Below, piece by piece: positions 12,930-36,628 of a DNA stretch of 37,122 bases. Source of the DNA: Candidatus Eiseniibacteriota bacterium (lineage in GTDB: Bacteria > Eisenbacteria > RBG-16-71-46); the NCBI GenBank assembly GCA_020849095.1, contig JADLGX010000520.1:1-37122 (forward strand), read 5' to 3'. The notes beneath the pieces were generated by a model. The model ran no database searches and was not told where the DNA came from. It was given only the letters and a program-made list of their open reading frames with translations. A program made the translations under genes and the position numbers. Within the stretch, counting starts at the first letter, position 1; every line of letters starts with the position of its first letter.

Positions 12930-14041
12930 GCGAGCGCATTCCGCTTGTCGATCTTCGAGCGCAGTACCAATCCATCCGAGCGGAGATGGACGAGGCAATC
13001 GGCCGAGTCGTCAGTCGCTGTGCCTTTATCCTCGGGGAAGAGGCCGAGGCGTTCGAAGCCGAGTTCGCGTCTTTCGTGGGCACTTCTCACTGCATCGGCG
13101 TCGGCAACGGAACGGACGCTCTAACGCTGGCCCTCCAAGCCTTGGGAATTGGTTCGGGTGACGAGGTGATCACCGTCTCGCTCACCTTCATCGCGACGGC
13201 AGAGGCGATCAGTGCCCTTGGCGCCATCCCCGTGTTCGTGGATGTGGCGCCCGACACTCTCCTGATGGACGTTGCTGCGGTCGAAAGAGCCATCACGCCG
13301 CGCACGCGCGCGATCATTCCGGTGCACCTCTACGGACAAGTCGTCGACATGGATCCGCTCCTGGAACTTGCCGCCAAAGCGAGCATCCCTGTCGTGGAGG
13401 ATGCAGCGCAAGCGCACGGGGCCACGTATCGCGGTCGTCGCGCCGGTTCCATGGGCCGTCTGGCGGCGTTCAGCTTCTATCCGGGCAAGAACCTCGGGGC
13501 GTACGGCGACGCTGGCGCCGTGGTCACCGCGGACCCGGAGCTGGCGCGGTGGGTTCGCAAGGCGCGGGACCACGGGCGGACCAGCAAGTACGCGCACGAC
13601 TTCGTTGGGCGCAATTCCCGTCTCGACGGCATCCAGGCCGCGGTCCTCCGCTGCAAGCTGCGCCACCTTGAGGGGTGGAACGCCGCGCGCAGGGCCCTTG
13701 CCGCCGAGTACGATCGCAGGCTCGCGGCGGTCGGCGGTGTGCGCCGGGTCGTGCGCCGCGCCGATGGCGACTCGGCGTGTCACCTGTACGTCGTCGAGGT
13801 GGATGGCCGTGACGAGGTCGTCGCGCGGCTGCGCGGGGCCGGGATCGAAGCCGGAGCGCATTACCCCATCCCGGTTCATCGCCAGGGCGCGTATTCGCAC
13901 ATCGAGGGCGTGGCGTTGCCGGTGACCGAAGCAGCGGCCGACCGCGTGCTGTCGTTGCCGTTGTACCCGGAGTTGAGTGCGGACGCGGCTGCTCGGGTGA
14001 CTGGGGCGATCGCTGCGACTGTCTGTGCGAGTGACCGCTAG
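12926..14041 (+). CDS. DegT/DnrJ/EryC1 PLP aminotransferase (WlbC/WbpE-like)
   Basis: A 371-residue sugar aminotransferase. IPLVDLRAQY at the N-terminus is the usual opening of this clade; VEDAAQAHGATY carries the PLP-binding Asp159; AFSFYPGKNLGAYGDAG contains the Schiff-base Lys188; HLYV and HYPIPVHRQ follow at the C-terminus. The WlbC/WbpE type aminates the 3-keto group of the UDP-uronic acid, using glutamate as donor. It overlaps the acetyltransferase by ATGA. A 12-nt gap separates it from the polymerase gene. Confidence 0.92.
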   Translation: MSERIPLVDLRAQYQSIRAEMDEAIGRVVSRCAFILGEEAEAFEAEFASFVGTSHCIGVGNGTDALTLALQALGIGSGDEVITVSLTFIATAEAISALGAIPVFVDVAPDTLLMDVAAVERAITPRTRAIIPVHLYGQVVDMDPLLELAAKASIPVVEDAAQAHGATYRGRRAGSMGRLAAFSFYPGKNLGAYGDAGAVVTADPELARWVRKARDHGRTSKYAHDFVGRNSRLDGIQAAVLRCKLRHLEGWNAARRALAAEYDRRLAAVGGVRRVVRRADGDSACHLYVVEVDGRDEVVARLRGAGIEAGAHYPIPVHRQGAYSHIEGVALPVTEAAADRVLSLPLYPELSADAAARVTGAIAATVCASDR

Positions 14042-14053
14042 CGAGGCTTCCCG

Positions 14054-15364: not shown

Positions 15365-15528
15365 GTGCGCTGCGAGGGTCGTACGCTGCTGCTGGGATTA
15401 CATCCGGCGACGGCGTGTCGATTGCAGGGAGGCAAAGGCATCGGGGCAGCCGAGCGCTGTGTAGGACGCGACGGGCGCTGCTTCTTGACATCCTGAGGCA
15501 GCGCTTCCGAATCGAGAAGGACAAGCCC

Positions 15529-15645
15529 ATGGCTCATCTCAAGGGACCTGCGAAGAACGAGGTTCTCGACGACTTGATGAAGTCGGTAAGTACGCTCCGC
15601 GCGTTGGCCTTGGAACATCCACCAACCTCCGTCACCGAGGGCTAA
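15529..15645 (+). CDS. Small hypothetical protein, 38 residues
   Basis: ATG 15529 with a GAGAAGGA site eight bases upstream encodes MAHLKGPAKNEVLDDLMKS... ending HPPTSVTEG, a short helical Leu-rich segment with a polar tail. The same frame is open back to GTG 15361, whose GTGA overlaps the polymerase stop, so a 94-residue form is possible; but that extension is Arg-rich with poor codon bias, and the strong RBS favours the short form. It ends 3 nt before the FkbM methyltransferase start, so the two are probably cotranslated. I do not recognise it. It could be a modifier subunit or a peptide substrate; no lasso leader motif is present. Confidence 0.5.
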   Translation: MAHLKGPAKNEVLDDLMKSVSTLRALALEHPPTSVTEG

Positions 15646-15648
15646 TCA

Positions 15649-16359
15649 ATGGCATCATTGACATGGAAATACCGCGTTTACCGCGCGCTCAACGGGTTCC
15701 CCGCTATCGGGTCAGCCGTTGATCGCTTTCGGGACTGGAAGTCATTTCGCGAGTATTCGCAGCGTGGAACATTTTCTCAACATGGCGAAGACAGGTTCTT
15801 GCTCGACTACTTTGGTGACCATGTGGGAACCTACGTTGATATCGGTGCAAACCACCCGTTTCGCATTAGTAACACTTTCATGTTGTATCAGCGCGGCTGG
15901 CACGGCTTGGTTATCGATCCAATTCCCAATCAGATCGACGCGCAGCGTCGTTGGCGGCCGCGCGATACTCAACTGAACATCGCGGTGGGTCCCAGCGCTG
16001 AGACACTGAAGTTCTTCTACTTGTACCCCAGTGTACTGTCGACGTTTGATCCTCAGGTGGCCGAGCGCTACCTGGCGGATGGTTCTTTGCTTCGGGCAAC
16101 CTACGATGTTGAAGTTCGAACTTTGGCCACTGTGCTTTCGTCCTTCAACAATGGTCGGTGCGATCTGCTTTCCGTCGACACAGAGGGTTTCGATGCGCGG
16201 ATCCTGCAGAGCAATGACTGGGAACGGTATCGGCCGCGACTGGTGATCTTTGAGCGCAACGACGAGGGATCTCGTTGCGAGTCTTCCGAGTTGCTTCTCG
16301 CCAATAACTACCGTTTTGTTCAACAGTGTGGTTGCAACCATGTGTTCGAAGCGCAGTAG
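15649..16359 (+). CDS. FkbM-family methyltransferase
   Basis: A 236-residue SAM-dependent methyltransferase. Motif I is GTYVDIGANHPFRISNT; GLVIDPIPNQ and LLSVDTEGFDARILQ follow in the order expected for FkbM proteins, which O-methylate sugars in many surface glycans. By eye its codons end in A or T far more often than those of its neighbours, and it uses many TTT, GTT and AAT codons, which points to a recent outside origin. It likely methylates a sugar of the repeat unit. The acceptor is unknown. Confidence 0.88.
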   Translation: MASLTWKYRVYRALNGFPAIGSAVDRFRDWKSFREYSQRGTFSQHGEDRFLLDYFGDHVGTYVDIGANHPFRISNTFMLYQRGWHGLVIDPIPNQIDAQRRWRPRDTQLNIAVGPSAETLKFFYLYPSVLSTFDPQVAERYLADGSLLRATYDVEVRTLATVLSSFNNGRCDLLSVDTEGFDARILQSNDWERYRPRLVIFERNDEGSRCESSELLLANNYRFVQQCGCNHVFEAQ

Positions 16360-17635: not shown

Positions 17636-18480
17636 ATCGAACTCTATGGAACGCTCTTAGAAAGAGCAAGCGCGCAGCGGAAGATGTCTTGTACCCCGTG
17701 TTCCTGGCGCGGGGTACTCGCCCTTGGAGTCTTGGGTATCAGACCCACAAGCGCCGAGAGATCGTCCGCGCAGTGCGCGAAGGGCTGTTTCGCGGTGGCG
17801 ATCTTGCCCCCGGCTACGGCCTGCACCTCGACGAGCGCGTCGTGGAATACCCGTGGTTCTTGTCTCGCCTCCCCGCGGGACCCGGGCGACTCTTGGACGC
17901 CGGGTCAGTGCTAAACCACAAGTTCCTGCTCGATCTTCCCGAGCTCCGCGAGAAGACCATCACCATCGCGACGCTTCAGCCTGAAGCGGAGGCGTTTTGG
18001 CACCGTGGCGTATCCTACGCGTTCACTGATCTGCGAGACACGTGCTTCAAGGACGCTTGCTTCGATTGGGTGGTTTGCGTTTCTACGCTGGAGCATATCG
18101 GGCTCGACAACGCTTTCCTCTACTCTCAGCGGCAGAAAGACAAGGAAGCTGCCCCTGATACCTACCTCCTTGCAGTTCGCGAGCTGAGACGCGTCGTTCG
18201 CAGCGGAGGCACGCTTTTCTTGTCCGTCCCGTTCGGTAGGTACGCAAACCACGGTTGGTTCCAAGTCTTCGACAAGCAAATGCTCGACCGTGTGATCGAC
18301 GTGTTTGCCCCGAGCGCGCACACAGCCGCGTTCTTCCGATACTCGGTGGACGGTTGGTCCCCCGCGCACGCCGAGGAGCTGAAGGACGCAACCTGTTTTG
18401 ACATCCATACGAGCCGCCGCCTCGACCCTGACCTGGCTGCGTCCGCCCGGGGGCTGGCATGCATCGAGCTCATTCGATGA
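17632..18480 (+). CDS. Class I SAM-dependent methyltransferase
   Basis: A 282-residue protein with a methyltransferase core: RLLDAGSVLNHKFLLDLP (motif I, slightly divergent), DLRDTCFKDACFDWVVCVSTLEHIGLDN (acidic loop and post-motif region) and RELRRVVRSGGTLFLSVPFG (motif after strand 5). It probably methylates a sugar of the glycan. The divergent motif I means inactive or atypical cofactor binding cannot be excluded. Coupled by ATGA overlaps to the genes on both sides. Confidence 0.8.
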   Translation: MNRTLWNALRKSKRAAEDVLYPVFLARGTRPWSLGYQTHKRREIVRAVREGLFRGGDLAPGYGLHLDERVVEYPWFLSRLPAGPGRLLDAGSVLNHKFLLDLPELREKTITIATLQPEAEAFWHRGVSYAFTDLRDTCFKDACFDWVVCVSTLEHIGLDNAFLYSQRQKDKEAAPDTYLLAVRELRRVVRSGGTLFLSVPFGRYANHGWFQVFDKQMLDRVIDVFAPSAHTAAFFRYSVDGWSPAHAEELKDATCFDIHTSRRLDPDLAASARGLACIELIR

Positions 18481-19049
18481 ACGCGAACTACCTCTTGAAG
18501 CGACTTCTGGGCCGCGCCACTTGTATTGTTGGAAGCGGCGCTGTGCTGCACTCTGAGGCAAGAGTCCGGAACCCCACGGGTGACTCCTCCGCAGTTAAGG
18601 TCGGTGAGTTCTCACACATCAAGGGTGAGTTGCTGGTTTTCTGGCACGGCGGACGCATCGAAATTGGTTCGTATTGCTTCCTTGGGCAACAGGCGAGGAT
18701 CTGGTCTGGTGCAGAGATCGTGATCGGTGACCGGACGCTAATTTCGCACAACGTCAACATCTTTGACAACCTGACCCACCCAACGAGCGCGCGCGCGCGG
18801 CATGAGCAGTTCAAGGCCGTGATCGGATTCGGACGACCCACGGATCAGGGACTTGGTTGCCGCCCCGTTCGGATCGGGTCGGACGTTCTGGTGGGGTGTG
18901 CGTCCATCATTCTGCGCGGGGTTACCGTTGGCAACGGCGCTATCATTGGCGCGGGTTCCGTGGTGGCGAACGACGTGCCAGCGTGGACAGTTGTGGCTGG
19001 TAACCCGGCGCGCCGCGTGCGGGAACTGGCCCCTGAGGACCGCTGGTGA
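18477..19049 (+). CDS. Hexapeptide-repeat O-acyltransferase
   Basis: A 190-residue left-handed beta-helix protein: VKVGEFSHIKGELLVFWHGG, IEIGSYCFLGQQARIWSG, IVIGDRTLISHNVNIFDN and the C-terminal VRIGSDVLVGCASIILRGVTVGNGAIIGAGSVVANDVPAW pattern (split into its hexads) place it among maltose/galactoside acetyltransferase-type enzymes. The internal HPTSARAR stretch is the catalytic loop region with His. It likely O-acetylates a sugar in the repeat unit. ATG 18477 overlaps the previous TGA; its own stop overlaps a GTG start. Confidence 0.85.
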   Translation: MNANYLLKRLLGRATCIVGSGAVLHSEARVRNPTGDSSAVKVGEFSHIKGELLVFWHGGRIEIGSYCFLGQQARIWSGAEIVIGDRTLISHNVNIFDNLTHPTSARARHEQFKAVIGFGRPTDQGLGCRPVRIGSDVLVGCASIILRGVTVGNGAIIGAGSVVANDVPAWTVVAGNPARRVRELAPEDRW

Positions 19050-23505: not shown

Positions 23506-24645
23506 TCACGTCGCGCGCACCAGCCTTTGCCGCGCACGGCGTGCCCACGACTTCGCGAGCACGCCCAGGTCCACGAGCCCGCGTGCGCCCGGGTAACGCT
23601 CGTGGGGCACGGGGGGGAGGGCGATCAGTGCCTCCAGCTCCTTGGGTGATACGCCGAGTTTCTTCGCGACGAAAGCCGTCTGGAGGCGCGCGGAATTCGC
23701 GTCGCATGCGGGGATCTGAAGCGCGGCGAGCGCGGAGTCCCGATTCAGGTGGCCGGCGACAATCTGACTTGATAGGTGCAGCCGGCGCTTGTCGAAACCG
23801 TAGCGTGCTGGCAGATACACCTCCTGGTAGAAACGCGTGAAACGCGACTCGTGGTGCTTCGAGCCGTAGTCTTTGAAGCCGTACTCGCGCTCCAGTTCTA
23901 GACGTGCGGCGTCCTTGTCGTAGTCGAGGAAATTCAGCGGGCGGTGGATTTCGAGTCGCCTGCTCACGCTCGTCCGCCAGATGTACTCGGTGACATCCAT
24001 GACGGGAAAGGTCTCGAGCGGCCGTGATCCGAAACGCCTGTGGATACCGCGGATGTGGCGGCCGTCCAGGTTCGGGTAGCCCCACCCCGGTAGACTGATG
24101 CACTCGCTGGCGAAATTGACGCCGCTGAGGAAGTGCCGAACGTTGAATGTCTCGGCCGTGCGATACAGCGTTGTGAAGAACGCGTGGTCCTGGGGGATGT
24201 CCTGGTTGAGCACCGACGCGCGCAGAAACGCCAGCTGGACGTCCCGCATCTCCTGCCACTCGACCACGTAGGTGTATAGGTCGAGCCCCAACGCCCGGAC
24301 CAAACGCTCGATGTTGTGGACGGCGGGCTCGGTGTTCCAGCCACCGTCCACGTGGATGGCCAACAAGCGCAAGCGGAAACGCGTCGCGAGCACGTGTGCC
24401 AGGTAGGCGCTGTCGGTGCCGCCACTCAGACCGATGATCGCGTCGTACGGGCGACGACGGCTCTCGCCAGCGATCTGTTCCGTCAGCATGCGAAGCCGGC
24501 GCTCGCCCTCCGCAGTCGGAAACCACTCGCTGCCCATGCGCGCTCGGGCATTGCGACAGCAGTCGCACTCTCCCCGTGCGTCGAAATCGAGTGTTGGGCC
24601 GGACTCGTCCATGACGCAGAATGTGCAGGCTCGACTCGGCTTCAC
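23506..24645 (-). CDS. N-acetyl sugar amidotransferase (WbpG/PseA/WbuX-like)
   Basis: A 379-residue ATP-pyrophosphatase-family enzyme. The P-loop is IIGLSGGTDSAYLAH (71-84). Cys7/Cys10 (ACTFC) and the cluster CDCC (27-30) form the zinc-like N-terminal motif of PseA/WbpG. With ammonia from the HisH/HisF2 pair it converts an acetamido sugar to an acetamidino (amidine) sugar, using ATP. GTG 24645 overlaps the HisF2 stop (GTGA). A longer upstream frame is antisense-type noise. It is the last gene of a four-gene minus-strand operon and converges on the fucosyltransferase. Confidence 0.92.
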   Translation of the reverse strand: MKPSRACTFCVMDESGPTLDFDARGECDCCRNARARMGSEWFPTAEGERRLRMLTEQIAGESRRRPYDAIIGLSGGTDSAYLAHVLATRFRLRLLAIHVDGGWNTEPAVHNIERLVRALGLDLYTYVVEWQEMRDVQLAFLRASVLNQDIPQDHAFFTTLYRTAETFNVRHFLSGVNFASECISLPGWGYPNLDGRHIRGIHRRFGSRPLETFPVMDVTEYIWRTSVSRRLEIHRPLNFLDYDKDAARLELEREYGFKDYGSKHHESRFTRFYQEVYLPARYGFDKRRLHLSSQIVAGHLNRDSALAALQIPACDANSARLQTAFVAKKLGVSPKELEALIALPPVPHERYPGARGLVDLGVLAKSWARRARQRLVRAT

Positions 24646-25409
24646 CAGGTTTCTCCGTTCGCCCGTGGCGAGGCGAGGTCCACCGTATCCGGGTAGGTGA
24701 TGAGCACGGCGCGCAGGCGGCCGATGAACACGAACGCGCTCCCCGAAGCCACCGCAGAGGCCCCGGCGCCAAGCCCAGCACGCAGGTGCGCCACATCGCC
24801 CGCCCCGCCGAGCGCCACGACCGGGACACCAACCGAATGTGCTACGGCAGATACCAGGCCGAGATCGTAGCCTTGCCCGCACCCATCGTGGTCGATGCTC
24901 TGTACCACGATCTCTCCGGCGCCTGCCTCGACGACCTGGCGAGCGAAGTCGATCGGGTTGTGTCCGAGGTCGAGTTGCCCGCGCCGGGAATGCACGCGGT
25001 ATCCATCGCGCCCGCTGCGCACGTCTACGCATGCTGCGACTGCCTGCGATCCGAAGACGTCGGCGATCCCGCGTACCAGTCCTGCGTCGGCGGCCGCTGT
25101 GCCAAGCAAGACCTTCTCCACACCCACTTTGAAGAGCGCTGCGGCGTCCTCGGTGCTTTGGACCCCGCCGCCATAGGTAAGCGGCATGAAGCACTCCGAC
25201 GCCAGCGCTCGCACGAAGTCCACCCGTGGGCGGCGGCCCTCGAGGGTAGCGCAGATGTCGAGCACACAGAGCTCGTCGACCTCCTTCTCGTTGAACAAGC
25301 GGATGACGTTGAAGGGGTCGCCCACGTACACTTCGTCCTTGAACCTCCGCGACTTGACGAGCCGGCGTCGGGAGTCGACGAGCAGGACAGGGATGACTCG
25401 AGGTCGCAT
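24642..25409 (-). CDS. HisF2/WbuZ-type acetamidino-sugar modification protein
   Basis: A 255-residue TIM-barrel protein related to the HisF cyclase subunit. MRPRVIPVLLVDSRRRLVKS is the WbuZ-style N-terminus; EVYVGDPFNVIRLFNEKEVDELCVLDI, LTYGGGV and VVALGGAGDVAHLR are the phosphate-binding segments. In the WbpG-HisH2-HisF2 system the HisF/HisH pair supplies ammonia, not imidazole glycerol phosphate, to WbpG. The ATG directly follows the HisH TAG. A true histidine-pathway HisF is unlikely because no other his genes are near. Confidence 0.9.
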   Translation of the reverse strand: MRPRVIPVLLVDSRRRLVKSRRFKDEVYVGDPFNVIRLFNEKEVDELCVLDICATLEGRRPRVDFVRALASECFMPLTYGGGVQSTEDAAALFKVGVEKVLLGTAAADAGLVRGIADVFGSQAVAACVDVRSGRDGYRVHSRRGQLDLGHNPIDFARQVVEAGAGEIVVQSIDHDGCGQGYDLGLVSAVAHSVGVPVVALGGAGDVAHLRAGLGAGASAVASGSAFVFIGRLRAVLITYPDTVDLASPRANGETW

Positions 25410-26024
25410 CTATGTGAGCTCCATGAACCGCTGCAAGAGGGCCATCCCGTGACGGTGGCTCTTCTCAGGATGGAACTGCACGCCGAAGACGCTGCCGCGT
25501 GCGACTGCCGCAGCGAACGTTCCGCCGTAGTCGCACCGGGCCGCGATGTCACGATCGTCATCGGGTTCGAGGCAGTAGCTGTGGCTGAAGTAGTAGCGCG
25601 GGACTTCGTTGCCCCCGGGAAAGAGCGCCGACGCGCGCGTAGGGCTGACCTCGCTCCAGCCCATGTGTGGCACCTTGACGCCCTCGTGCGGCGAGAGCTT
25701 GACGACATCGGCTGGGATCCACCCGAGCCCCCGCTCGCTGCGCTGTCCCTCGTCGCTGCTGCGGCCGAGAAGCTGCATCCCAAGACAGATCCCGAGCACC
25801 GGGGCACCGCGCGCGACGACTGCCTCCGTCAACGGCGCAACTAAGTCGAGCTCACGCAACCGTGCCATCGCCTGGTCGAACGCCCCGACACCCGGGAGGA
25901 TTAGGCGAGCCGCGCTGACGATGGATCGGGGGTCGCGGCTGGCCACAGCGTCATGGCCTAGGTGCTCGAGCATGTTGATTATGGCCCCCAAGTTGCCGAC
26001 GCCGTAGTCCACGACGATGTTCAT
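25410..26024 (-). CDS. hisH: HisH-type glutamine amidotransferase (WbuY-like)
   Basis: A 204-residue class I glutaminase. VLGICLGMQLLG carries the nucleophile Cys80; FHPEKSH supplies His185 and Glu187, completing the triad. The MNIVVDYGVGNLGAI start is the classic HisH opening. It releases ammonia for the neighbouring WbpG-like enzyme. The HisF2 gene follows with no gap. A 72-bp gap with no gene separates it from the upstream GT4. The RBS is not obvious. Confidence 0.92.
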   Translation of the reverse strand: MNIVVDYGVGNLGAIINMLEHLGHDAVASRDPRSIVSAARLILPGVGAFDQAMARLRELDLVAPLTEAVVARGAPVLGICLGMQLLGRSSDEGQRSERGLGWIPADVVKLSPHEGVKVPHMGWSEVSPTRASALFPGGNEVPRYYFSHSYCLEPDDDRDIAARCDYGGTFAAAVARGSVFGVQFHPEKSHRHGMALLQRFMELT

Positions 26025-26096: not shown

Positions 26097-27317
26097 TCAC
26101 TGATCGCCGGCCAATGATGTGAAGAGCTCGAGATATCGGGCGATGACCCGGTCCGCCGAGAACTCCCGCTCAAACGCTGTGCGAGCGGCGACGCGGGCAA
26201 GCGCCGTATCTTGCAGCGCAAGGGCGTCCACCGCCCGTGCGAGCGCTTCGGGATCGCCGGCTGGCACCACTACCCCGCCCGCTCCCTGCACACATCGAGC
26301 CGTGTCCGAATCGGCGTCGACCGATGCAACCACGGGTCGGCCCGCTGCGAGGTACCCAACGACCTTGCTCGGCACGCTGGTGCGTCCCATGCCGGGCGCG
26401 AGCGTGACCAGTCCGATGTCGCCGGTGGCCTGGACCTCGGCCAGGCGGGACCGGGGCTGGAACGGCGAGAAAGTGACATTGGACACCCCGAGCGAAAGGG
26501 TTCGATTTCGAACGGCGTCGAGGGCCTCGCCGGCGCCGACGACGACGAACGCTACCCGCGAGTTCGCGGTGCGCGCAGCAGCCTCCGCCACGACGGTGGC
26601 CCCCGAGACGACGCCGACCGTGCCGGCGTATAGCACCACGAAGTCATTCAGACCGAGACCGAGCTCGCGTCGAAACGCGGTATCCCTCGACATCGGCATG
26701 ATTTCGTCTTCGCTCAACCAGACCGGGATCACCTCGAGCTTGCGTTCGGGGACTCCACGTGCTGAGAGGGTACGGCGGAAGCCTTCGGAAAGAACTACGA
26801 GCTTGTCCGCGGCGCGGTAGCCGGCCCGTTCTGCGAGCCGCGCCGCGGCGATGAGTTCACGACGCCGCAGCCGTCCCGATGCGACGGCAACGTCTGGGTA
26901 GATGTCGAAGACAACTGAGACCAGCTTCGCGCCGAACGGTCGTGCCACTGCTGCTCCGACCATCGGACCGCCCAGCGGCGGTCCGATGGTGACGACGACG
27001 TCCGGGCGGTCCGCGCGAGCGGCAGCGCAGGCCATGGCCAGGGACTGGCTCGCGAGAACGGCCGCGCGGGTCGGCGCATCGCGCCTCCTGCTCGTCGGGT
27101 GCCAGCACCTCAGTACCGTGACCCCGGCAAGCTCGCTGCGCGCGGACGCCCGCCCCCCAAACCCCTCATACACCTGTCCGCCTGGGTGGTGCGGGAGACC
27201 GCAAGCGACGGTGGCCCGGCCCCCGCCATCCACAACCGCGCGGGCGAGCTGCTGCGTCATGACCGCGGTTGGATGCGTTTCAGGCGGAAAGACCTGGGGC
27301 AGGAAGAGCACGTGCAC
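26097..27317 (-). CDS. GT4-family glycosyltransferase (WcaI/WbuB-like)
   Basis: A 406-residue GT-B transferase. VHVLFLPQVFPPETHPTA at the N-terminus is characteristic of the WcaI/WbuB group; FDIYPDVAVASG lies mid-protein; FVVLYAGTVG starts the donor domain; GLVTLAPGMGRTSVPSKVVGYLAAGRPV holds the acidic/Lys donor-binding loop. Starts at GTG 27317 or GTG 27335 are both possible; 27317 begins the fold. First gene of the acetamidino operon, so it may transfer the amidino sugar. Divergent from the GNAT-PGT gene across about 75 bp. Confidence 0.88.
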   Translation of the reverse strand: MHVLFLPQVFPPETHPTAVMTQQLARAVVDGGGRATVACGLPHHPGGQVYEGFGGRASARSELAGVTVLRCWHPTSRRRDAPTRAAVLASQSLAMACAAARADRPDVVVTIGPPLGGPMVGAAVARPFGAKLVSVVFDIYPDVAVASGRLRRRELIAAARLAERAGYRAADKLVVLSEGFRRTLSARGVPERKLEVIPVWLSEDEIMPMSRDTAFRRELGLGLNDFVVLYAGTVGVVSGATVVAEAAARTANSRVAFVVVGAGEALDAVRNRTLSLGVSNVTFSPFQPRSRLAEVQATGDIGLVTLAPGMGRTSVPSKVVGYLAAGRPVVASVDADSDTARCVQGAGGVVVPAGDPEALARAVDALALQDTALARVAARTAFEREFSADRVIARYLELFTSLAGDQ

Positions 27318-27392: not shown

Positions 27393-28625
27393 GTGACCGA
27401 AGCGCTCCACGTTCGCCCCGCCTCCTTGGACGATGCCGGCGCCCTCCAGCGTCTGCACGGCCGTGCGTTCCCCTCATTCTTCCTGACCACGCTTGGACCC
27501 CGTTTCCTCGAGCTGTTCTATGATCGCCTGATCCGCGATGGCGAGATTGTTCTGGTCATCGAGCTAGGGGGAGCCATGGCAGGTTTTGCGGCCGGGACAG
27601 CGCGCCCCCACGGGTTCTTCACACGGCTGCTCCGGCGAGATGCTTGGCGGTTCGCATCGGCGAGCGTGCCCGCCCTGGTGCGCCACCCCCGGATCGCGCC
27701 CCGGTTGTGGCGTGCGACCCGCCGTCCCGCGGAAGAGCGCGAGCGCCCGGAAGGCTTCGCCACGCTGCTCTCCATTGCGGTCGACCCTGGGCGGGCGCGC
27801 CATGGGCTTGGCGCCCGGTTGTTGGAAGCGTTCATCGCCGAGGCCAGAGCGCGTGGCGCCGCCGGATTGGACCTGACCACGGATTGCGACGAAAACGACG
27901 CGGTGAACGCGTTCTACCGTCGGAACGGGTTCTCCCTCCGCCGCGAGTTCACGACACCGGAGGGGCGTCGCATGAACGAGTACGAGATGCGCATCGACGA
28001 TGCGCGGCCGAGCCCTCCGCCGAAGCCCGCGCCTGGCCTGATCGCCAAGCGAGGCATCGACGTCGTCGCTGCCTCTGCCGGGCTGGCGACGTTGTTGCCG
28101 CTGCTTGTTCTGGTCGGCGCCGCGGTGCGGCTCGAGTCCCCTGGTCCCGCGCTGTTTCGGCAGGAGCGGGTGGGGCTCCGCGGCTCCCGATTCCGGCTGC
28201 TGAAGTTTCGGACCATGTGCGCCCGATCGCCTGGGCCACAAGTCACTGCTGCCGGGGACCCCCGCATCACGCGTCTTGGCCGTTTTCTGCGGCACTACAA
28301 GCTCGACGAACTGCCGCAGTTGATCAACGTGCTCGCCGGCGAGATGAGCCTCGTCGGTCCGCGGCCCGAAGTCCCGCGGTACGTCCAGCACTATCCGGAG
28401 CGTTGGCGCCGCGCGCTGACCGTGCGGCCAGGGCTCACCGACTTCGCCGCACTCGAGTTCCTGGACGAAGAGGCCATTCTTTCCCGAAGCCAGGACCCCG
28501 AACGAGCGTACGTGGAACAGGTCTTGCCGCGGAAGCTGGAACTCTACGAACGCTACCTTGCGGAACAGTCTCTGACCACCGACCTCCGTTTGATCGCGGA
28601 GACGCTTCGGCGCATCTGGAGGTGA
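27393..28625 (+). CDS. GNAT N-acetyltransferase fused to PglC/WcaJ-type phosphoglycosyl transferase
   Basis: A 410-residue two-domain protein. Residues 5-198 are a GNAT fold with the acetyl-CoA loop LSIAVDPGRARHGLGARLLEAF (126-147, R-x2-G-x-G) and NAFYRRNGF. A Pro-rich linker (205-215) leads to a monotopic phosphoglycosyl transferase: KRGIDVVAASAG with one re-entrant hydrophobic helix, SPGPALFRQERVG, FRLLKFRTM, the catalytic Asp305-Glu306 in YKLDELPQL, and GEMSLVGPRPE. The transferase moves sugar-1-phosphate from UDP-sugar to undecaprenyl phosphate. The GNAT half may acetylate the 4-amino sugar made by the PglE- and PglF-like neighbours, as WecD does for dTDP-Fuc4N. The frame is continuous with no stop or frameshift. 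GTG 27393 is the likely start (RBS weak). Confidence 0.9.
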   Translation: MTEALHVRPASLDDAGALQRLHGRAFPSFFLTTLGPRFLELFYDRLIRDGEIVLVIELGGAMAGFAAGTARPHGFFTRLLRRDAWRFASASVPALVRHPRIAPRLWRATRRPAEERERPEGFATLLSIAVDPGRARHGLGARLLEAFIAEARARGAAGLDLTTDCDENDAVNAFYRRNGFSLRREFTTPEGRRMNEYEMRIDDARPSPPPKPAPGLIAKRGIDVVAASAGLATLLPLLVLVGAAVRLESPGPALFRQERVGLRGSRFRLLKFRTMCARSPGPQVTAAGDPRITRLGRFLRHYKLDELPQLINVLAGEMSLVGPRPEVPRYVQHYPERWRRALTVRPGLTDFAALEFLDEEAILSRSQDPERAYVEQVLPRKLELYERYLAEQSLTTDLRLIAETLRRIWR

Positions 28626-28630
28626 TACTG

Positions 28631-29794
28631 GTGTCGCCCATGGACTTCCTGCCTTTTGCGCTTCCCGATATCACCGATCGCGAGATCGACGCGGTCGTCG
28701 CCGCGCTGCGGTCGGGTTGGATAACTACTGGTCCGCGTACCCGAGAATTCGAACAGAGGTTCTCCGCCGCGGCGGGCGGCGGCGAAGTCGTCATGGTCAA
28801 CTCGTGCACGGCGGCCATGCACCTCGCGCTCGAGGCGATTGGAATCCAGCCCGGTGACGAGGTCATCGTCCCAACCATGACTTTCGCCGCAACCGCGGAG
28901 GTGGTGCGCTATCTCGGCGCCACCCCAGTGCTGGTCGACGTGCTGGCCGCGGATCACAACATCGACCCGTTAGCGGTCGAGCGTGCCGTCACGTCGCGGA
29001 CGCGTGCAGTGATCCCTGTTCATTTCGCGGGCATGCCGTGCGACATCGATTCGGTCACTGACCTCGGACGCGCTCGCGGTCTAGTGGTCATAGATGACGC
29101 GGCGCATTGCTTCCCTTGCGAATACCGTGGGCGTCCCGTCGGCACGTGGGCGGATGTTACTGCTTTTTCGTTCTACGCGACCAAGACGATGACTACCGCG
29201 GAGGGCGGGGCGGCCGTGACCACGCGACCGGACTGGGCCGAGCGCATGCGCGTCATGTCTTTGCACGGAATCTCCAAGGACGCGTGGAAACGGTACTCCG
29301 TCGAGGGTTCTTGGTACTACGAGATCATCGCGCCTGGGTTCAAGTACAACATGACCGACATCGCCGCCGCGCTCGGCCTGGTTCAGCTCGAACGCGCAGA
29401 GGAGATGACCGATGCGCGCAGGCGTATCGCCGACCAATACGACTCTGCGTTCGCCGAGTCGGACACATTCGAAGTCATCCCGCGCCATGCGGACCGCGGG
29501 CATTCCCACCATCTCTACGTGCTCAAGCTTCGCCCGGGCGCGCTTCGGGTGGGTCGCGGTGAGGTGATCGAACGGCTGAAGCAGAGGGGCGTGGGCGCGT
29601 CGGTGCACTTCATTCCGCTTCACCTGCACCCGTACTACCGCGACCGGTTCGGCTATCGACCCGACAGCAATCCGATCGCCCTCGACCTGTTCGAGCGCAG
29701 CTTCTCGTTGCCCATTTACTCCCGCATGGCGACCGCCGACGTGCAACGTGTAGTGGAAGCAGTACTGGACATTGCGCGCGAAGGCCGCCGCTGA
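28631..29794 (+). CDS. DegT-family sugar aminotransferase (PglE-like)
   Basis: A 387-residue PLP aminotransferase. SGWITTGPRTREFEQRF is the typical opening, VVIDDAAHCFPCEY has the PLP-phosphate-side Asp, FSFYATKTMTTAEGGAAV holds Lys185, and VHFIPLHLHPYY closes the substrate pocket. The clade aminates 4-keto-6-deoxy UDP-GlcNAc (PglE/ArnB-type). GTG 28631 has GGAGG eight bases upstream, better placed than the ATG at 28640. It directly follows the GNAT-PGT gene (5-nt gap), so amination, acetylation and transfer to lipid are encoded in one transcript. Confidence 0.88.
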   Translation: MSPMDFLPFALPDITDREIDAVVAALRSGWITTGPRTREFEQRFSAAAGGGEVVMVNSCTAAMHLALEAIGIQPGDEVIVPTMTFAATAEVVRYLGATPVLVDVLAADHNIDPLAVERAVTSRTRAVIPVHFAGMPCDIDSVTDLGRARGLVVIDDAAHCFPCEYRGRPVGTWADVTAFSFYATKTMTTAEGGAAVTTRPDWAERMRVMSLHGISKDAWKRYSVEGSWYYEIIAPGFKYNMTDIAAALGLVQLERAEEMTDARRRIADQYDSAFAESDTFEVIPRHADRGHSHHLYVLKLRPGALRVGRGEVIERLKQRGVGASVHFIPLHLHPYYRDRFGYRPDSNPIALDLFERSFSLPIYSRMATADVQRVVEAVLDIAREGRR

Positions 29795-29795: not shown

Positions 29796-32330
29796 TCACG
29801 GATTTCGCAGAATCGCTTGCCTCCGCGCAGCATCGAGCCGTCTCTCCAACTCCGGGTCGGGGCTTCGAAGCCGAAGCGCACGCTCGAGTGCCTCTGCCAC
29901 TTGTGAAGGGATGCCGAGATGCTCCGCAGCGTCCGCGACCTCCAGCCACCGGTCGGCGGTTGGTGCCTCGCGCACGGCGAGGCGGAAGTGCGTCAGCGCG
30001 CCGGCCCATGCCCCGCGCTTCGCCGCGAGCCGTCCGACCAACATCGCTGCTTGCGCGCAGACTTCGGTGTCTGCCCCACAACGAGCGCCCAGGTAGTCTC
30101 GCGCTGCCCGTTCAAGCGCAGAGTCGCTGACTGAGGCCGCGACTCTTGCCCGCGACTCGAGGCAGTCCTCCCGATCACGGGCTCGCGGGCACGCTGCTTC
30201 CAGCATTGCCTCTGCGCCTTCCGCATCACCCTCGAGCAGCAGGAGCTGGGCTTCGATCCGTACCCCCACGGAGTTCCCCGCGTCCGTCGCCGACAGCGTG
30301 CGAGCGTGGAGTCTCACGCGTGAGACGCAACTTGCGCGTTGGTCGCCGGCGCAGGGCGCCGTACTCGCCGACAGCGACGCGAGGAGCTCCGAAGCCATCG
30401 CCGAGTTCGCACCTCTGTCTTTAGGAGCGCGGGCCAGCGCTTCGGCGAGCAGTCTGTGCCGTCCCGTGCTTGCGGCTTCCAGGCCGGCCAGAGCCACGAG
30501 CACAGCGGCGCCTCCCGGGCCGGGAGGCGCGACGCTGACCCGCTCACCGATGTCTCGAGCCCAAGCGTTTGCGCGTCGCGAGACCGAGTCGGTGAGTCCT
30601 GGCTCGTGCTCCGCGGCCAGACGAAGCTCGAACAACGACTGCTTCGCCGCGCCACGGCTGCGCAAGACCTCGGCAAGCGCCAAGTGCGCGCGCCCGTTGA
30701 CAGGCGCGCGCTCGATAGCGCGTGCCAGCCAGGCCAACGCGGTCGGGCTCCTCTCGTCATGCGCAGCAAGCCCGGCCAGGAGCGGCAGGTAGCCGTCTCC
30801 GGGGTGGCGGAGGATGGCCCGACGAAGCTCCACCCCGAGGTTGGCGCGGTCAGTGTCGGATCGGGTCTCACTGGCGCGAGCATGAAGGCGATGAAGGCGT
30901 TGCCGGTCGGTGGCGAGGTCGTTCCAGCCGAAGACCGCCGCTCCCGTCACCGCACCGACCAGCGCCAGCGGTAGCGCACCGGACACCGCGAGCGCGACCC
31001 GTGTCTCGACAGCGACCGGGGTTCGGTGTTGGCCTCGCGCGCCCCACAACGCGCCCAGCACCGCGAAGAACCCGACCATGACGCCGGGGACCTCGAAGGC
31101 GAGGTCAACCAAGTTGTGGGCGACCAGTACCAGCAGGCCCACCCATGCGGCCGCTGCGGTCGAGTTGGAGGCGACGCCCAGAGGCCTCGGTCGCATGAGC
31201 CAAACCAAGAGCGCTGCTGCCAGCGCCGTGACGGGCAGCCCCCACTCGGTTGCCCACTGCGCAAGGAACGACTCCGCGTGTTGGAACCCCACTCCGCTAG
31301 AGCCCCGTTGAAACTCCGGAAACGTGCTGCCAAACGCGCCGCGACCCGCACCCAGCCAGGCAAAGCGCTGAGCCATGGGCACGGTCCATCGGATGATCTC
31401 GAGCTTCTCGAGCCCCGGGGTCAGGAGTTCGTGCCACACCGCCGGAGTCGCCGCAAGCAGGGCGAGCCCAGTGCCCGCTGCGAGCGCGCCGAGCGTTACC
31501 GCCGCCGCTATCCTTAGCGCGGTGCGCCTCCGACGGCGAGTGCCCGCAGCAATCGCACCGAGGAAGAGCATGCCGGAGGGAAGCAGCGCGACGCCCGCCC
31601 GCGACGCAGTGGTGACGCAGACGCCCACCAAGAGCGCTATGCCGGCGCCCAGTGCAAGGCGCTCTCCCGGACGCGCTCTGGCGGACGCCAGGAGCCCTGC
31701 GCCGCAGAAGGTTGACAGGTTCAGGTATCCCGCAAGATTGTTGGGGTTCAGCAGCGGTCCGACGTGCCACGGTGCCGCGGCGAACGTCGGCTGATACAAC
31801 CCAAAGACCCAGGTTGCGCCTGCAAGCCCGTGCGCAACGGTGACGAGGGCAGCGCTGACGCCTGTCACGAACACCATGGACAGCACGGTCCGCGCCCCCT
31901 CCCTCCGCGCGACGTGGATCGAGCACACGAAGACAGCGGAGTACAGAAACCATTTGAGACTCTCCACTACGGTTGCCCCAGGGTCCAACGAGATCGGCAT
32001 CCATGCAGGAGCCGGTGAACCGGCCGGGCCAAGCGCTCTCGACCAAATGTCCGCGTTGGGCGGAGCGATGGTCGCGAGCACCGCACCCGGGAGCGGAATT
32101 GCCTGGCCGAGCGTGTACGCTGCAAGGGCTGGCAGTGCGACCTGCGCCAATGAAACGCCTTTCACGCGCGGCTGGCGCCGTGTGCCGACCACCCCCGCAG
32201 CGGCAGCCGCTCCCAGCGCCAGCAACACGGGCAAGTGCACTGCTCCGATGGCCAGGACCGAGCCCCAAACCAAGACGGCCAGCGCGGTGGCCACAAGGCC
32301 GCCGTGCGCAACCGAACGCCCGGGCGTCAT
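29796..32330 (-). CDS. O-antigen ligase/polymerase-like membrane protein with TPR-like C-terminal half
   Basis: An 844-residue protein. Residues 10-460 contain about 11-12 membrane spans with GPLLNPNNLAGYLNLS and the loop SRAGVALLPSG, plus WLGAGRGAFGSTFPEFQ and HAESFLAQWATEWGLP, all in the order of O-antigen ligase/Wzy_C (PF04932) proteins; the conserved Arg and His in these loops are visible. The C-terminal half (about 480-844) is soluble and helical, with repeats such as ALAWLARAIERAP and ALTHFRLAVREAP, resembling TPRs. ATG 32330 is chosen so the first helix starts promptly; ATG 32405 or 32423 are alternatives. It may ligate or polymerise a glycan, or be a PilO-like glycan transferase. It lies convergently against the aminotransferase (1 nt apart). 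Confidence 0.85.
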   Translation of the reverse strand: MTPGRSVAHGGLVATALAVLVWGSVLAIGAVHLPVLLALGAAAAAGVVGTRRQPRVKGVSLAQVALPALAAYTLGQAIPLPGAVLATIAPPNADIWSRALGPAGSPAPAWMPISLDPGATVVESLKWFLYSAVFVCSIHVARREGARTVLSMVFVTGVSAALVTVAHGLAGATWVFGLYQPTFAAAPWHVGPLLNPNNLAGYLNLSTFCGAGLLASARARPGERLALGAGIALLVGVCVTTASRAGVALLPSGMLFLGAIAAGTRRRRRTALRIAAAVTLGALAAGTGLALLAATPAVWHELLTPGLEKLEIIRWTVPMAQRFAWLGAGRGAFGSTFPEFQRGSSGVGFQHAESFLAQWATEWGLPVTALAAALLVWLMRPRPLGVASNSTAAAAWVGLLVLVAHNLVDLAFEVPGVMVGFFAVLGALWGARGQHRTPVAVETRVALAVSGALPLALVGAVTGAAVFGWNDLATDRQRLHRLHARASETRSDTDRANLGVELRRAILRHPGDGYLPLLAGLAAHDERSPTALAWLARAIERAPVNGRAHLALAEVLRSRGAAKQSLFELRLAAEHEPGLTDSVSRRANAWARDIGERVSVAPPGPGGAAVLVALAGLEAASTGRHRLLAEALARAPKDRGANSAMASELLASLSASTAPCAGDQRASCVSRVRLHARTLSATDAGNSVGVRIEAQLLLLEGDAEGAEAMLEAACPRARDREDCLESRARVAASVSDSALERAARDYLGARCGADTEVCAQAAMLVGRLAAKRGAWAGALTHFRLAVREAPTADRWLEVADAAEHLGIPSQVAEALERALRLRSPDPELERRLDAARRQAILRNP

Positions 32331-32422
32331 CCGCACCGGTCCGTTGCTCCTGGGGATGGCGGCGTTCGCGGCGGATGAATCACGGTGACCCGGTGCGCAC
32401 CGCATGATAGACCAGGTCCCCA

Positions 32423-34663
32423 TTGAATTCCCCGAAGAATCCGACCTTTGCCGGAAGCCCAGCCCCGCAAGGAGGCGCGCCGCCCGGCGTGCTCGCTGTG
32501 CTGAGGACAGTGCGGAAGTTCTGGCTCACGGCGCTGGGCACAGCAGTTGCTGTTGCACTCGCGGTTACGTTCTACACGCTCGGTCAAACCCGCATCTTCG
32601 AGGCCAGCGCGACTATCCAGTTCGACCCCAATCCCCCGCGGCCGCTGGGGAAGAACGTCGATATGGTCGTGGACATGGGCGCGGGCACCTACTGGAACAA
32701 CCGCGAGTACTTCGAGACTCAGTACAAGATCCTCCAGTCTATGCGGGTTGCCCTCCCGGTTATCAAGCGCCTCGCGCTGCACCAAGACGCCAGCTTTCTG
32801 GCCAATCGTCCAGCAGGGGCCGCAGGCGCTTCGCCTGGAGTGAGCGAAGAAGAGGCCGCTGAAGTTCTCCGCACGCGCCTACGGGTCGAGCCTGTGAAAG
32901 ACAGCCGGCTAGCGTTCGTGCGATTCGCTGATGCCGACCCCAATCGTGCGCAGCGCGTGCTCTCCGCCGTTTTGGACACCTACGTGGACCAGAACCTCGA
33001 GTATGCGCGCGACTCGACCAGCTCGGCGGTAGACTGGCTGGGCGGGCAACTCGAGAAGATCCGAAAGGAGCTCGAAGACAACGAGCGCGCCCTCCATCAG
33101 TACAAGCTCGACAAGAACGTGCTCTCGCTGGACCCCGACGCCCAGTCCAACATGTTGCGCGAGGAAATGAAGCAGCTCAACGACGAGCTCACTTCCGTCC
33201 GCGCCAAGAAACAGGGTGTCAAGGCGCAGCGTGACGAGCTCCTGAAGGTTAAGGCGGAAAACCCTACGGAGCTGCCAGCAAACGAGCTGCTGCAGAGCCC
33301 GCTCCTTCAGCAGCTTCGCCAGCGATACGAGGACGCAGTGAGGGATCGGGCCGCGCTGATTGGCGCAGGCAAGGGTGCTGGGCATCCTGATGCTGCTGCG
33401 GCGGAAGCGCGGGTGAAGACGTCCCGTGCCGCCCTGTTGGCGGAGGTCAAGAACGTCCAGGGCGCGGTATCCCGCGAGTTCACGGCGGTGTCCAGGCAGG
33501 AGGCAGGTCTTTCAGGCCTCTTCGAGGCTTCCAAGCGGAGGGCGCTGGAGCTAAACCTGCTCGAGGTCGACTACAACCGGCTTCGCCGCACACGGGACCA
33601 CAGCGAGAAGCTCTACTCGCTGTTGCTCGAGCGGACCAAGGAGGGCGACCTCGCGCGGATGATGCAGGTCAACAACATCCGCGTGGTGGACCGCCCGCTA
33701 CCGCCGCGAAGCCATGTGCGCCCCCGAGTCCCGGTCAACATCGCGTTCGGTGTGCTCGGCGGGCTCGCCCTTGGCGTTCTTGCGGCGATGGCCCGCACGC
33801 TCCTCGACCGGACAGTGAAAACCCCCGACGACGTCGAGTCCGAAGTTGGGATGGTGTTCCTTGGCCTTCTTCCAGAGATCCGAGCGCCAGGCCTCGCTGC
33901 GGCGTACTCGCGACGCCAACGCAGGACGAGTGTCGTGAAGAACCCTGAGCTGGTCGTACACGAGTCTCCAGCCAGCGGTGTCGCGGAGGCCGCTCGCGCC
34001 ATCCGCACGAACCTGCTGTTCATGGCCCCGGACCAGCCGCTCCGAACGTTATTGGTCACCAGCCCCGCCCCATCAGAAGGGAAGACGACCGTTGCCACGA
34101 GCATCGCGATCGCAATGGCCCAGGCAGGGCAGCGGGTCGTGCTGATCGACTGCGATCTTCGCCGTCCGCGAATCCACCGCGTCTTCAAGCTGACTTTGGA
34201 CGTCGGGCTCACCTCCGCCGTAATCGAGGACATGGACGTGGAGGCGATATCCCGACCGACCGAAGTGCCGAACCTGTCGGTGATCCCGGCGGGTCCCCTC
34301 CCACCTAACCCGGCCGAGATTTTTCACAGCGAGCGGTTCAAGTCCACGCTGTCACGGATTGCGGAGCGCTTCGACCGCGTCATCATCGACTCCCCGCCGG
34401 TGGTCGCGGTCACCGACGCGACGGTACTATCCACGCTCGCGGATGGAGTCTTGTTGGTCTTGCGGGCTTTCGGCACCCAGAAGGACCTGGCGCGGCATGC
34501 CACACGTGCGATACGGGACGTGGGTGGAAATGTGGTCGGCGCTGTTCTCAACGCGGTGAATCTCGATCGCCACGAGTACAAGTACCATTATTACTACTAC
34601 CGTCGGGACGGGAAGTACTACTCGGAGGACGCGCAGCCACCGGATGGTCGCGCCGCAGCGTGA
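32423..34663 (+). CDS. Wzc-type chain-length determinant and BY-kinase
   Basis: A 746-residue protein fusing a Wzz-like periplasmic coiled-coil domain with a cytoplasmic tyrosine kinase. TM1 is at about 31-53 (RKFWLTALGTAVAVALAV), the coiled region 165-415, TM2 about 435-460. The kinase has Walker A SPAPSEGKTTVATS (about 546-559), Walker A' VLIDCDLRRP, and RVIIDSPPVVAVTDA (Walker B). The C-terminus has a Tyr cluster, HEYKYHYYYYRRDGKYYSED (715-734), the autophosphorylation region. It sets chain length of the Wzy-made polysaccharide. TTG 32423 has no strong RBS; GTG 32489 behind AAGGAGG is an alternative but removes part of the N-terminal tail. Divergent from the ligase; the 92-bp gap has no clear promoter. 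Confidence 0.92.
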   Translation: MNSPKNPTFAGSPAPQGGAPPGVLAVLRTVRKFWLTALGTAVAVALAVTFYTLGQTRIFEASATIQFDPNPPRPLGKNVDMVVDMGAGTYWNNREYFETQYKILQSMRVALPVIKRLALHQDASFLANRPAGAAGASPGVSEEEAAEVLRTRLRVEPVKDSRLAFVRFADADPNRAQRVLSAVLDTYVDQNLEYARDSTSSAVDWLGGQLEKIRKELEDNERALHQYKLDKNVLSLDPDAQSNMLREEMKQLNDELTSVRAKKQGVKAQRDELLKVKAENPTELPANELLQSPLLQQLRQRYEDAVRDRAALIGAGKGAGHPDAAAAEARVKTSRAALLAEVKNVQGAVSREFTAVSRQEAGLSGLFEASKRRALELNLLEVDYNRLRRTRDHSEKLYSLLLERTKEGDLARMMQVNNIRVVDRPLPPRSHVRPRVPVNIAFGVLGGLALGVLAAMARTLLDRTVKTPDDVESEVGMVFLGLLPEIRAPGLAAAYSRRQRRTSVVKNPELVVHESPASGVAEAARAIRTNLLFMAPDQPLRTLLVTSPAPSEGKTTVATSIAIAMAQAGQRVVLIDCDLRRPRIHRVFKLTLDVGLTSAVIEDMDVEAISRPTEVPNLSVIPAGPLPPNPAEIFHSERFKSTLSRIAERFDRVIIDSPPVVAVTDATVLSTLADGVLLVLRAFGTQKDLARHATRAIRDVGGNVVGAVLNAVNLDRHEYKYHYYYYRRDGKYYSEDAQPPDGRAAA

Positions 34664-34675: not shown

Positions 34676-36628
34676 ATGAAGCGAATAGCGCTGCGGACTT
34701 CCCAAGTCCTTGTCGATCTCGGGGTGCTCGCAACGGCGTTGCTGTTTGCGTTCGCGGCACGGTTCGACGGTCGCCTCAGCGACGACACGCTGAAGCGGTT
34801 GCTGTTTGTCATGCCCTACGTCGTGGGGTTTCAGTACTTGGTGCTGTTCGGCTTCGGGGTGCCTCGTTTCGTCTGGTCGTATACCAGCCTGCGCGAGGTT
34901 CGACAGATAGCACTGGCCCTCGGCACGAGTTCCGCCGTGCTCTTCGTTGCGCGAGTCCTCTCTCCCTACTTCTTGGACTACTCCTTTCGCGCTCGCTACG
35001 CCGCTTTGCCCATCGGTGTGATCGTCGGTGACTTCGCGCTCGCACTGCTCGGCGTTGCCGGCGTGCGCGCCTTGCGGCGAGTAGTTGGCGAGCGTGCGAA
35101 GCGAGCGGGCCTCGTGCAGCACGACACCCCACGCATCCCAACTCTCCTGGTGGGCGCCGGGCAGGCGGGCTCGCTGGTCGTCAAGGAAATCCTGTCGCGC
35201 CCTGAGCTGGGCATCGTGCCCGTGGGCTTCCTAGATGACGACGGCATGAAGCACGGCATGGCGATCCACGGTGTGAGGGTGCACGGCCTAGTGGAGTCCC
35301 TTGCCCAGCAGGCGGAGAAGCTCGGCGCCCAGCAGGTGGTGATCTCGATGGCGAGCGCGCCCGGCGACGCGGTACGTCGCGTGCTGGCCCTGGCGGAGAA
35401 AGCCCACCTTCCGGTGCGGATCATCCCCGGCATCTACGAGATCCTCGACGGCCGAGTGAATCTCTCGCGCTTGCGCGAGGTGTCGATCGAGGATTTGTTG
35501 GGTCGGGAGCCCGTGGTGCTGGATCACGCTGGCGTAGCGAGCTTCATCCGTGGGAAGCGCGTCTTGGTCACTGGAGCTGGGGGTTCGATCGGCAGCGAGC
35601 TGTGCCGCCAGATCGTAGCGTTCGAGCCAGAAAAACTGGTGCTCGTCGAGCGCAGTGAGTTTCACTTGTTCGAGATCCACGGGGAGCTGGCAGCCGCCCA
35701 CGGAGCGCGGGTCGTCCCTCGGATTGGAGACGTCTGCGATGCAGGAAGGCTGGCCTCCATTTTCGCGCGCGAACGTCCGCACGTCGTGTTTCACGCCGCG
35801 GCGCACAAGCACGTGCCCATGATGGAGTGGAACCCTGGTGAAGCCGTCAAGAACAACGTGTTCGGCACCCGCAACGTGGCTGACGCCGCCCACCGCGCTG
35901 GAGCTGACTCCTTCGTGCTGGTCAGCACAGACAAGGCTGTCAACCCGACATCGGTAATGGGAGCGACGAAGCGCGTTGGCGAAATGTACGTTCAAGCGCT
36001 GTCGCGCCGGTCATCCACGAAGTTCGTTGCGGTTCGGTTCGGCAATGTGCTCGGGTCGGCCGGGTCTGTCATCCCGACGTTCAGGAGGCAGATCGCCGCG
36101 GGTGGGCCCGTCACCGTGACTCATCCAGAGATGACGCGGTACTTCATGACGATCCCCGAGGCGTCGCAGCTGGTGATGCAGGCAGGCGCGCTGGGCAAGG
36201 GGGGCGAGATTTTCGTGCTCGATATGGGCAGCCCTGTGAAGATCGTCGATCTTGCGCGCGACATGGTCCGTCTGAGCGGGCTGGTCCCCGACGTAGATGT
36301 GAAGATCGAGTTCTCCGGCGTGCGTCCAGGCGAGAAGCTCTATGAGGAGCTGGCCTTCGACGAAGAGAAGATGGACAGGACACGCCACCCGAAGATCTTC
36401 GTGGGCCGGATCTCTCCGCGGGACCTCGACGAAGTCGCGTTCGACCTGGAAGTGCTGTCGACAGTTATGGGATCGGAGCAGGCAAAGGATGTGCGCGTCG
36501 CGCTCTCCAGGGTTGTGCCAGAAATGCGCGAGCCAGCCCGAGATCAGGACACGGCGCTTTCGTCCGAGCCAATGCCCGAGGCGACGTCTGTCAAATGCGT
36601 CGCGCGCCCGGCGATCGCGCGCGCTTGA
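34676..36628 (+). CDS. UDP-GlcNAc 4,6-dehydratase (WbpM/PglF/CapD-like)
   Basis: A 650-residue membrane-anchored enzyme. Four N-terminal hydrophobic spans lie in about 5-130 (e.g. DLGVLATALLFAFAARFDG, VMPYVVGFQYLVLFGFGV). A first Rossmann domain starts LLVGAGQAGSLVVKEI (about 157). The catalytic SDR domain has RVLVTGAGGSIGSELC (about 295) and VSTDKAVNPTSVMGATKRVGE (about 416-436), where Met replaces the SDR Tyr, the Ser-Met-Lys variant of PglF/WbpM. It makes the UDP-4-keto-6-deoxy sugar needed by the PglE-like aminotransferase. ATG 34676 has GGGGGCTGGGCG-type purines upstream and lies 12 nt after wzc-like. Confidence 0.95.
   Translation: MKRIALRTSQVLVDLGVLATALLFAFAARFDGRLSDDTLKRLLFVMPYVVGFQYLVLFGFGVPRFVWSYTSLREVRQIALALGTSSAVLFVARVLSPYFLDYSFRARYAALPIGVIVGDFALALLGVAGVRALRRVVGERAKRAGLVQHDTPRIPTLLVGAGQAGSLVVKEILSRPELGIVPVGFLDDDGMKHGMAIHGVRVHGLVESLAQQAEKLGAQQVVISMASAPGDAVRRVLALAEKAHLPVRIIPGIYEILDGRVNLSRLREVSIEDLLGREPVVLDHAGVASFIRGKRVLVTGAGGSIGSELCRQIVAFEPEKLVLVERSEFHLFEIHGELAAAHGARVVPRIGDVCDAGRLASIFARERPHVVFHAAAHKHVPMMEWNPGEAVKNNVFGTRNVADAAHRAGADSFVLVSTDKAVNPTSVMGATKRVGEMYVQALSRRSSTKFVAVRFGNVLGSAGSVIPTFRRQIAAGGPVTVTHPEMTRYFMTIPEASQLVMQAGALGKGGEIFVLDMGSPVKIVDLARDMVRLSGLVPDVDVKIEFSGVRPGEKLYEELAFDEEKMDRTRHPKIFVGRISPRDLDEVAFDLEVLSTVMGSEQAKDVRVALSRVVPEMREPARDQDTALSSEPMPEATSVKCVARPAIARA

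Follow-up and report, generated by a model that had tools for sequence, protein, structure and literature searches.

The window analysed here is a stretch of 37,122 nucleotides from a genome of Candidatus Eiseniibacteriota bacterium (contig JADLGX010000520.1). At 27393..28625 (+) it carries a gene for a protein of 410 residues in which a GNAT N-acetyltransferase half is followed by a small monotopic phosphoglycosyl transferase (PGT) half. With a probability of about 0.7, this fusion protein would start polysaccharide assembly for its gene cluster as a bifunctional enzyme, the GNAT half acetylating the 4-amine of a sugar and the PGT half loading the sugar-phosphate. This assignment was made from the domains observed, their catalytic motifs, the neighbouring genes and the occurrence of unfused relatives in the same context.

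All 410 codons of the fusion gene lie in one open frame with no internal stops; GTG at 27393 is preferred as the start, since homologues begin there. Both domains are found by Pfam in this one frame, as the initial annotation had stated: Acetyltransf_1 (PF00583) at residues 33-180 (E 8.2e-13, 49.1 bits against a cut-off of 20.7) and Bac_transf (PF02397) at residues 219-408 (E 3e-52, 177 bits against a cut-off of 27). The GNAT half (27393..28007, +) was delimited by Pfam, homologue alignments and a model, the PGT half (28041..28625, +) by Pfam, motifs and a model, and a proline-rich linker (28008..28040, +) lies between the two complete domains. The limits first given for the domains, residues 5-198 and 217-410, agree with the homologue alignments and the models. 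Having a functional domain, here a GNAT at the N-terminus, fused to a PGT core, the protein falls among the bifunctional PGTs (Bi-PGTs), a class described in PMC10942596.

Folding of the GNAT half together with three relatives gave a GNAT fold (mean pLDDT 84.7, pTM 0.83) that matches GNAT chains with Z up to 18.4 and a Foldseek E of 1e-10; domain and fold thus both place this half in the GNAT superfamily. His22, FFL at 29-31, Gly138-x-Gly140 and Tyr175 each occur in at least 10 of the 11 members aligned, and Tyr175, by motif a putative general acid, and the G-x-G loop are kept in all 11, the window and genome G817 (see below) among them. The acetyl-CoA loop motif of GNATs is Q/RxxGxG; the Q/R position is Ala135 in the window protein and varies among its relatives. 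The fold searches did not reveal a substrate, the GNAT fold being one that fits many. PseH and WecD were not among the fold-search matches listed for the model, which proves nothing, and the listing of solved relatives by sequence had no chain of either name. The breadth of the fold and the alanine in place of the usual Q/R would suit a GNAT half acting elsewhere, on another sugar amine of the repeat unit, on the lipid-linked sugar once loaded or with another acyl donor, or serving as a non-catalytic membrane-proximal scaffold. Retention of Tyr175 and the G-x-G loop argues against this, as does the gene linkage described below, and such a role is considered improbable.

In the PGT half, the Asp305-Glu306 pair noted at the outset is present within the sequence DELPQ, and PRP occupies positions 323-325. 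An Asp-Glu dyad and a PRP motif are described for monotopic PGTs in PMC10653937. In a full-length model, the PGT half matches WbaP 8t53 (Z 21.2 over 158 residues) and PglC 8e37 (Z 20.1 over 177 residues) and includes a long predicted membrane helix at 216-248; the GNAT half of this model, built without GNAT relatives, is unreliable, and no domain arrangement is claimed from it. Hence Pfam domain, dyad and PRP, and PglC-like fold all indicate a monotopic PGT of the Bac_transf/PglC superfamily.

The PGT half is 48% identical to a PGT encoded next to an aminotransferase gene in a Parabacteroides capsule locus, and 49% identical to Shigella sonnei plasmid PGTs, presumably WbgY. The S. sonnei O antigen includes FucNAc4N, according to PMC4368438. 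Sequence similarity to PglC ends at residue 144 of the PGT half, and the C-terminal segment of this half is common to PGTs whose genes neighbour those of DegT aminotransferases. A tree was built of 20 PGTs, four of them other PGTs of the same genome. The window PGT and that of G817 are sisters in it (support 94/89). All seven PGTs that came from GNAT loci fall with these two in a clade (96/90), as does the Parabacteroides PGT, whereas those four fall outside.

The genes expected to supply the sugar are nearby. A DegT-type sugar aminotransferase gene (28631..29794, +) lies 5 bases downstream of the fusion gene, and a PglF-like UDP-GlcNAc 4,6-dehydratase is encoded at 34676..36628 (+), both in the positions assigned by the initial annotation. 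The best solved relative of the dehydratase is 5bju (E 2.8e-96), WlaL, which we take to be PglF; like the 5bju chain, the dehydratase has MGATK in place of YxxxK, an MxxxK variant.

In the proposed pathway, the dehydratase would convert UDP-GlcNAc to a 4-keto-6-deoxy sugar, and the aminotransferase would place an amine on C4 to give a UDP-2-acetamido-4-amino-2,4,6-trideoxyhexose, more likely with the galacto (AATGal) than the gluco configuration. The GNAT half would then transfer acetyl from acetyl-CoA to the 4-amine of the UDP-sugar, and the PGT half would transfer the sugar-1-phosphate to undecaprenyl phosphate via a covalent intermediate at Asp305. What we infer from the observations above is which substrates and which acyl group are used, whether the GNAT reaction precedes that of the PGT, and any channelling. 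To our knowledge, PseH and WecD are not joined to a PGT. PMC4363471 describes both as GNATs acting on a nucleotide-linked sugar, whose 4-amine they acetylate, as proposed for the GNAT half, and this step therefore has a precedent. PglF, WcfR and WcfS together gave lipid-linked AATGal in E. coli (PMC13063421), which is a direct precedent for every step but that of the GNAT.

The identity of the sugar was considered from the aminotransferase and the PGT. The aminotransferase scored 304 bits against ArnB, 287 against Spr1654 (E 2e-84), 164 against PseC and 91.5 against PglE, structures 2fn6 and 4ztc being taken by us as PseC and PglE, respectively. It is therefore not PglE-like, contrary to the initial annotation. 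Phe85 of the aminotransferase aligns with Tyr84 of Spr1654 (structure 6ewj, PMC5936713), Phe84 of PseC and Trp89 of ArnB, and the same source reports that the Trp-bearing ArnB accepts only a sugar without an N-acetyl group. Thus, the substrate is probably a 2-acetamido sugar, although the slightly higher score of ArnB, whose own sugar is without the N-acetyl group, speaks against the mechanism. The stereochemistry is read from the bit scores and this one pocket residue. Given these scores and the kinship of the PGT with the Parabacteroides and S. sonnei enzymes, a galacto sugar of the AATGal/FucNAc4N type appears more likely than the bacillosamine-type sugar initially proposed.

The same mechanism could operate with bacillosamine (gluco), the GNAT replacing PglD and the PGT replacing PglC. 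The PglF-like dehydratase, one of the parts of the original proposal that stood, and the PglC fold of the PGT half are in keeping with this, and PMC6959607 describes Neisseria PglB as joining the same two activities for diNAcBac. However, PglE scores lowest of the aminotransferases compared, sequence similarity to PglC is confined to part of the PGT half, and the PGT is close to enzymes of the Parabacteroides capsule locus and of S. sonnei, with its FucNAc4N-containing O antigen. Bacillosamine is therefore regarded as possible but unlikely, and the galacto sugar is retained below.

Outside the window's genome, the GNAT family was unfused in every case found. The first relatives, found by sequence alone, were those of genome G070, a Sulfitobacter plasmid and three Clostridia loci. 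Gene linkage was counted at 33 family loci and at 16 control loci around weakly matching GNATs, each extending up to about 10 kb per side where the contig or record allowed, with neighbours scored within 3 kb; the matches in G127 and G032 (the weakest of one genome search), G1198 and G1121 were left out of the count. At a profile E of 1e-40 or below, a DegT aminotransferase gene was within 3 kb in 10 of 11 loci and a PGT gene in 7 of 11. The corresponding numbers were 13/17 and 8/17 at 1e-22 or below and 14/33 and 10/33 for all family loci. No family locus (0/33) had a PGT fusion, and none of the 16 controls had an aminotransferase or PGT gene, one control giving no GNAT signal. These loci are not all independent: L043, L130 and L131 come from one genome and L170 and L172 from another, and five of the 33 (L036, L042, L043, L044 and L045) also served to build the GNAT profile.

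Aminotransferase linkage fades among the looser members of the profile, and at 17 of the 33 unfused loci both an aminotransferase and a PGT are lacking within 3 kb, which would fit a GNAT half with a role elsewhere. Against that role, the closest relatives are strongly linked to DegT aminotransferases. The idea that acetylation and loading are combined in one protein, put forward in the initial annotation, gains independent support from these unfused GNATs, since their genes adjoin those for DegT aminotransferases and PGTs.

At several loci, genes for the proposed pathway enzymes stand together. Runs of aminotransferase, PGT and GNAT genes occur in L044, L045, L130, L131 and L132, and L133 has the order dehydratase-aminotransferase-GNAT-PGT. 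On the Sulfitobacter plasmid (L042), genes for a dehydratase, GNAT, PGT and aminotransferase lie within about 6.5 kb; side by side are those for the dehydratase, the GNAT, the sugar transferase, a PIG-L deacetylase, a formyltransferase and the DegT aminotransferase. The presence of the deacetylase and formyltransferase in this GNAT cluster (12001-16042) suggests alternative N-acyl groups on the same sugar. The Sulfitobacter record was the only annotated one seen for the family, and it reads 'GNAT family N-acetyltransferase'. The uridine-binding motif reads GPRP in the window PGT but GTRP in the PGTs beside the GNAT in L044, L045, L131, L132 and L133 (Clostridia-type).

Separate counterparts of both halves are present in G817, a one-contig genome of the same domain as the window's genome. 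Its GNAT is the closest found (49-50% identical), as are its PGT (60%) and the aminotransferase encoded directly after the PGT (66%); further along are a dehydratase (45%) and a Wzc relative (37%). The unfused relatives of both halves and the aminotransferase lie within about 18 kb. There is no aminotransferase or PGT gene within 3 kb of the G817 GNAT gene, both being about 15 kb away. The GNAT gene is divergent from a gene for a GT4 glycosyltransferase that is 49% identical to the window GT4. This arrangement is as in the window, where the GT4 gene (26097..27317, -; start approximate) is divergent from the fusion gene. In the alignments, the end of the G817 GNAT is only a few residues from the start of the window linker, the G817 PGT starts about ten residues ahead of a shared KR, and neither gene carries the linker. 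Hence two genes of one pathway appear to have been joined cleanly in the fusion.

A second fusion of this kind was not found among the genomes searched (1532 over all searches), including four others of the same genus (0/4). Viral contigs searched gave no relatives, phages gave none, and no plasmid (0/1006 matching records) had a place covering at least 80% of the query. Matches to the GNAT profile were obtained in 13/385, 2/3, 3/3, 3/391, 4/7, 1/2, 4/195 and 10/398 genomes, samples that overlap and were searched with differing E-value limits; single-sequence GNAT searches covered 99 and 47 genomes. Apart from the window, the only frame of more than 400 residues among these profile matches that covers most of the GNAT was in G794 (443 residues), and it was without a PGT. 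BLAST of the window PGT against 27 loci from the 99-genome search (L009-L035) gave no matches, and one contig scan by narrow patterns returned three loci. Some genome searches scored 7 to 16 candidates per genome at first look, so misses are possible.

The question arises whether so rare a gene is an artefact, in which a misassembly or single-base error joined neighbouring GNAT and PGT genes. The window's genome is a draft of 629 contigs, the fusion is absent from the four congeners and the other genomes searched, and translation of a separate PGT might conceivably begin at an internal ATG (Met194 or Met199). Of the other two frames at the junction, one has stops and one does not. However, GC by codon position is even and continuous across the junction, and none of 136 junction 15-mers was seen again elsewhere in the window or at 11 other loci of the same genome; thus, no repeat is seen that would explain a misjoin. 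The join also sits between complete domains, with a linker found in neither G817 gene. An artefact is accordingly judged very improbable, since the continuous GC and the lack of a junction repeat give no support to a frameshift or misjoin. The doubt raised initially, that the fusion might be a rare artefact or a frameshift, was borne out in part: the fusion is rare, no second genome among those searched being found to carry it, but no sign of a frameshift or misjoin was seen.

Neisseria PglB carries its acetyltransferase as a C-terminal left-handed beta-helix domain, whereas the acetyltransferase of the fusion is an unrelated GNAT at the N-terminus, as the initial annotation had noted; the fusion is therefore outside the PglB family. 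The likeness is one of function: PMC6959607 describes PglB as combining 4-amine acetylation of a UDP-2-acetamido-4-amino-trideoxyhexose, there a gluco sugar, with loading onto undecaprenyl phosphate. The pathways of Campylobacter (PglF-PglE-PglD-PglC) and Bacillus (EpsC-N-M-L) share with the cluster the order of the four reactions, the dehydratase family and the PGT fold, but use an aminotransferase of another subfamily, and PglD of Campylobacter, a separate protein, is described as a left-handed beta-helix enzyme (PMC4363471). Also comparable are WcfR-WcfS of Bacteroides fragilis, where a PglF-type 4-keto sugar passes to a DegT aminotransferase and then to a PGT (PMC13063421), and Spr1654 of Streptococcus pneumoniae, where such a sugar passes to a DegT aminotransferase forming AATGal (PMC5936713). 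The likeness of WcfS to the fusion PGT is by description, PGT kinship having been measured on the Parabacteroides enzyme. In the Bacteroides polymers the 4-amine is free and a source of positive charge (PMC10167101), whereas the GNAT of the fusion would cap it. Mimivirus L142 joins a 4-amino-sugar N-acetyltransferase to a putative transferase of that sugar (PMC10117803), but its transferase is a glycosyltransferase and not a PGT.

In the literature searched, no GNAT-PGT fusion was found, and PMC12802240 mentions GNATs as proximity-labelling hits. A GNAT as N-terminal partner of a PGT is thus new within that literature; the network survey likeliest to list such fusions was outside its scope, and novelty in print is not established. 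It is tentatively suggested that the fusion is a convergent counterpart of Neisseria PglB, in which a member of a distinct GNAT family, specialised for capping the 4-amine of AATGal-type sugars, was fused to the N-terminus of the PGT so that only acetylated sugar reaches the membrane. If so, the primer of a zwitterionic polymer would become neutral, and sugar acetylation and membrane loading would have been joined on two or more occasions through unrelated acetyltransferases, an argument for selection on the coupling of these steps. This GNAT family would then receive a testable label, '4-amino-sugar N-acetyltransferase', and the gene would mark whether an AATGal-type primer is charged, as in immunomodulatory zwitterionic capsules, or capped.

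Between the aminotransferase and dehydratase genes, the window encodes a Wzy_C protein resembling O-antigen ligases/polymerases, which also matches TPR weakly (29796..32423, -), and a Wzc-like chain-length determinant with tyrosine autokinase (32423..34663, +). A hexapeptide acetyltransferase (18459-19049), which falls short of the cut-offs for the NCBIfam models listed, is encoded in the same cluster and could serve it in place of the GNAT half; another DegT aminotransferase gene is located at 12542-14041. At 24642-26024 (-), a HisH gene lies beside one for an AglZ/HisF2-type acetamidino-modification protein (299.7 bits against a cut-off of 310). No partner amidotransferase was recognised for this pair, from which the cluster may amidinate an N-acetyl sugar.

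Two further PGT loci were observed on other contigs of the same genome. On contig C295 (L037; 12212-13967), a second aminotransferase gene, its product 44% identical to that of the window, is followed by a PGT gene cut by the contig end. On contig C216 (L038; 6257-8842, -), a second PGT fusion is encoded, a PglF-like dehydratase of 861 residues ending in a Bac_transf domain (E 6e-28). This domain has Asp-Lys at the place of the catalytic Asp-Glu and PKP at that of PRP; judging from these replacements, it may be an inactive or regulatory PGT.
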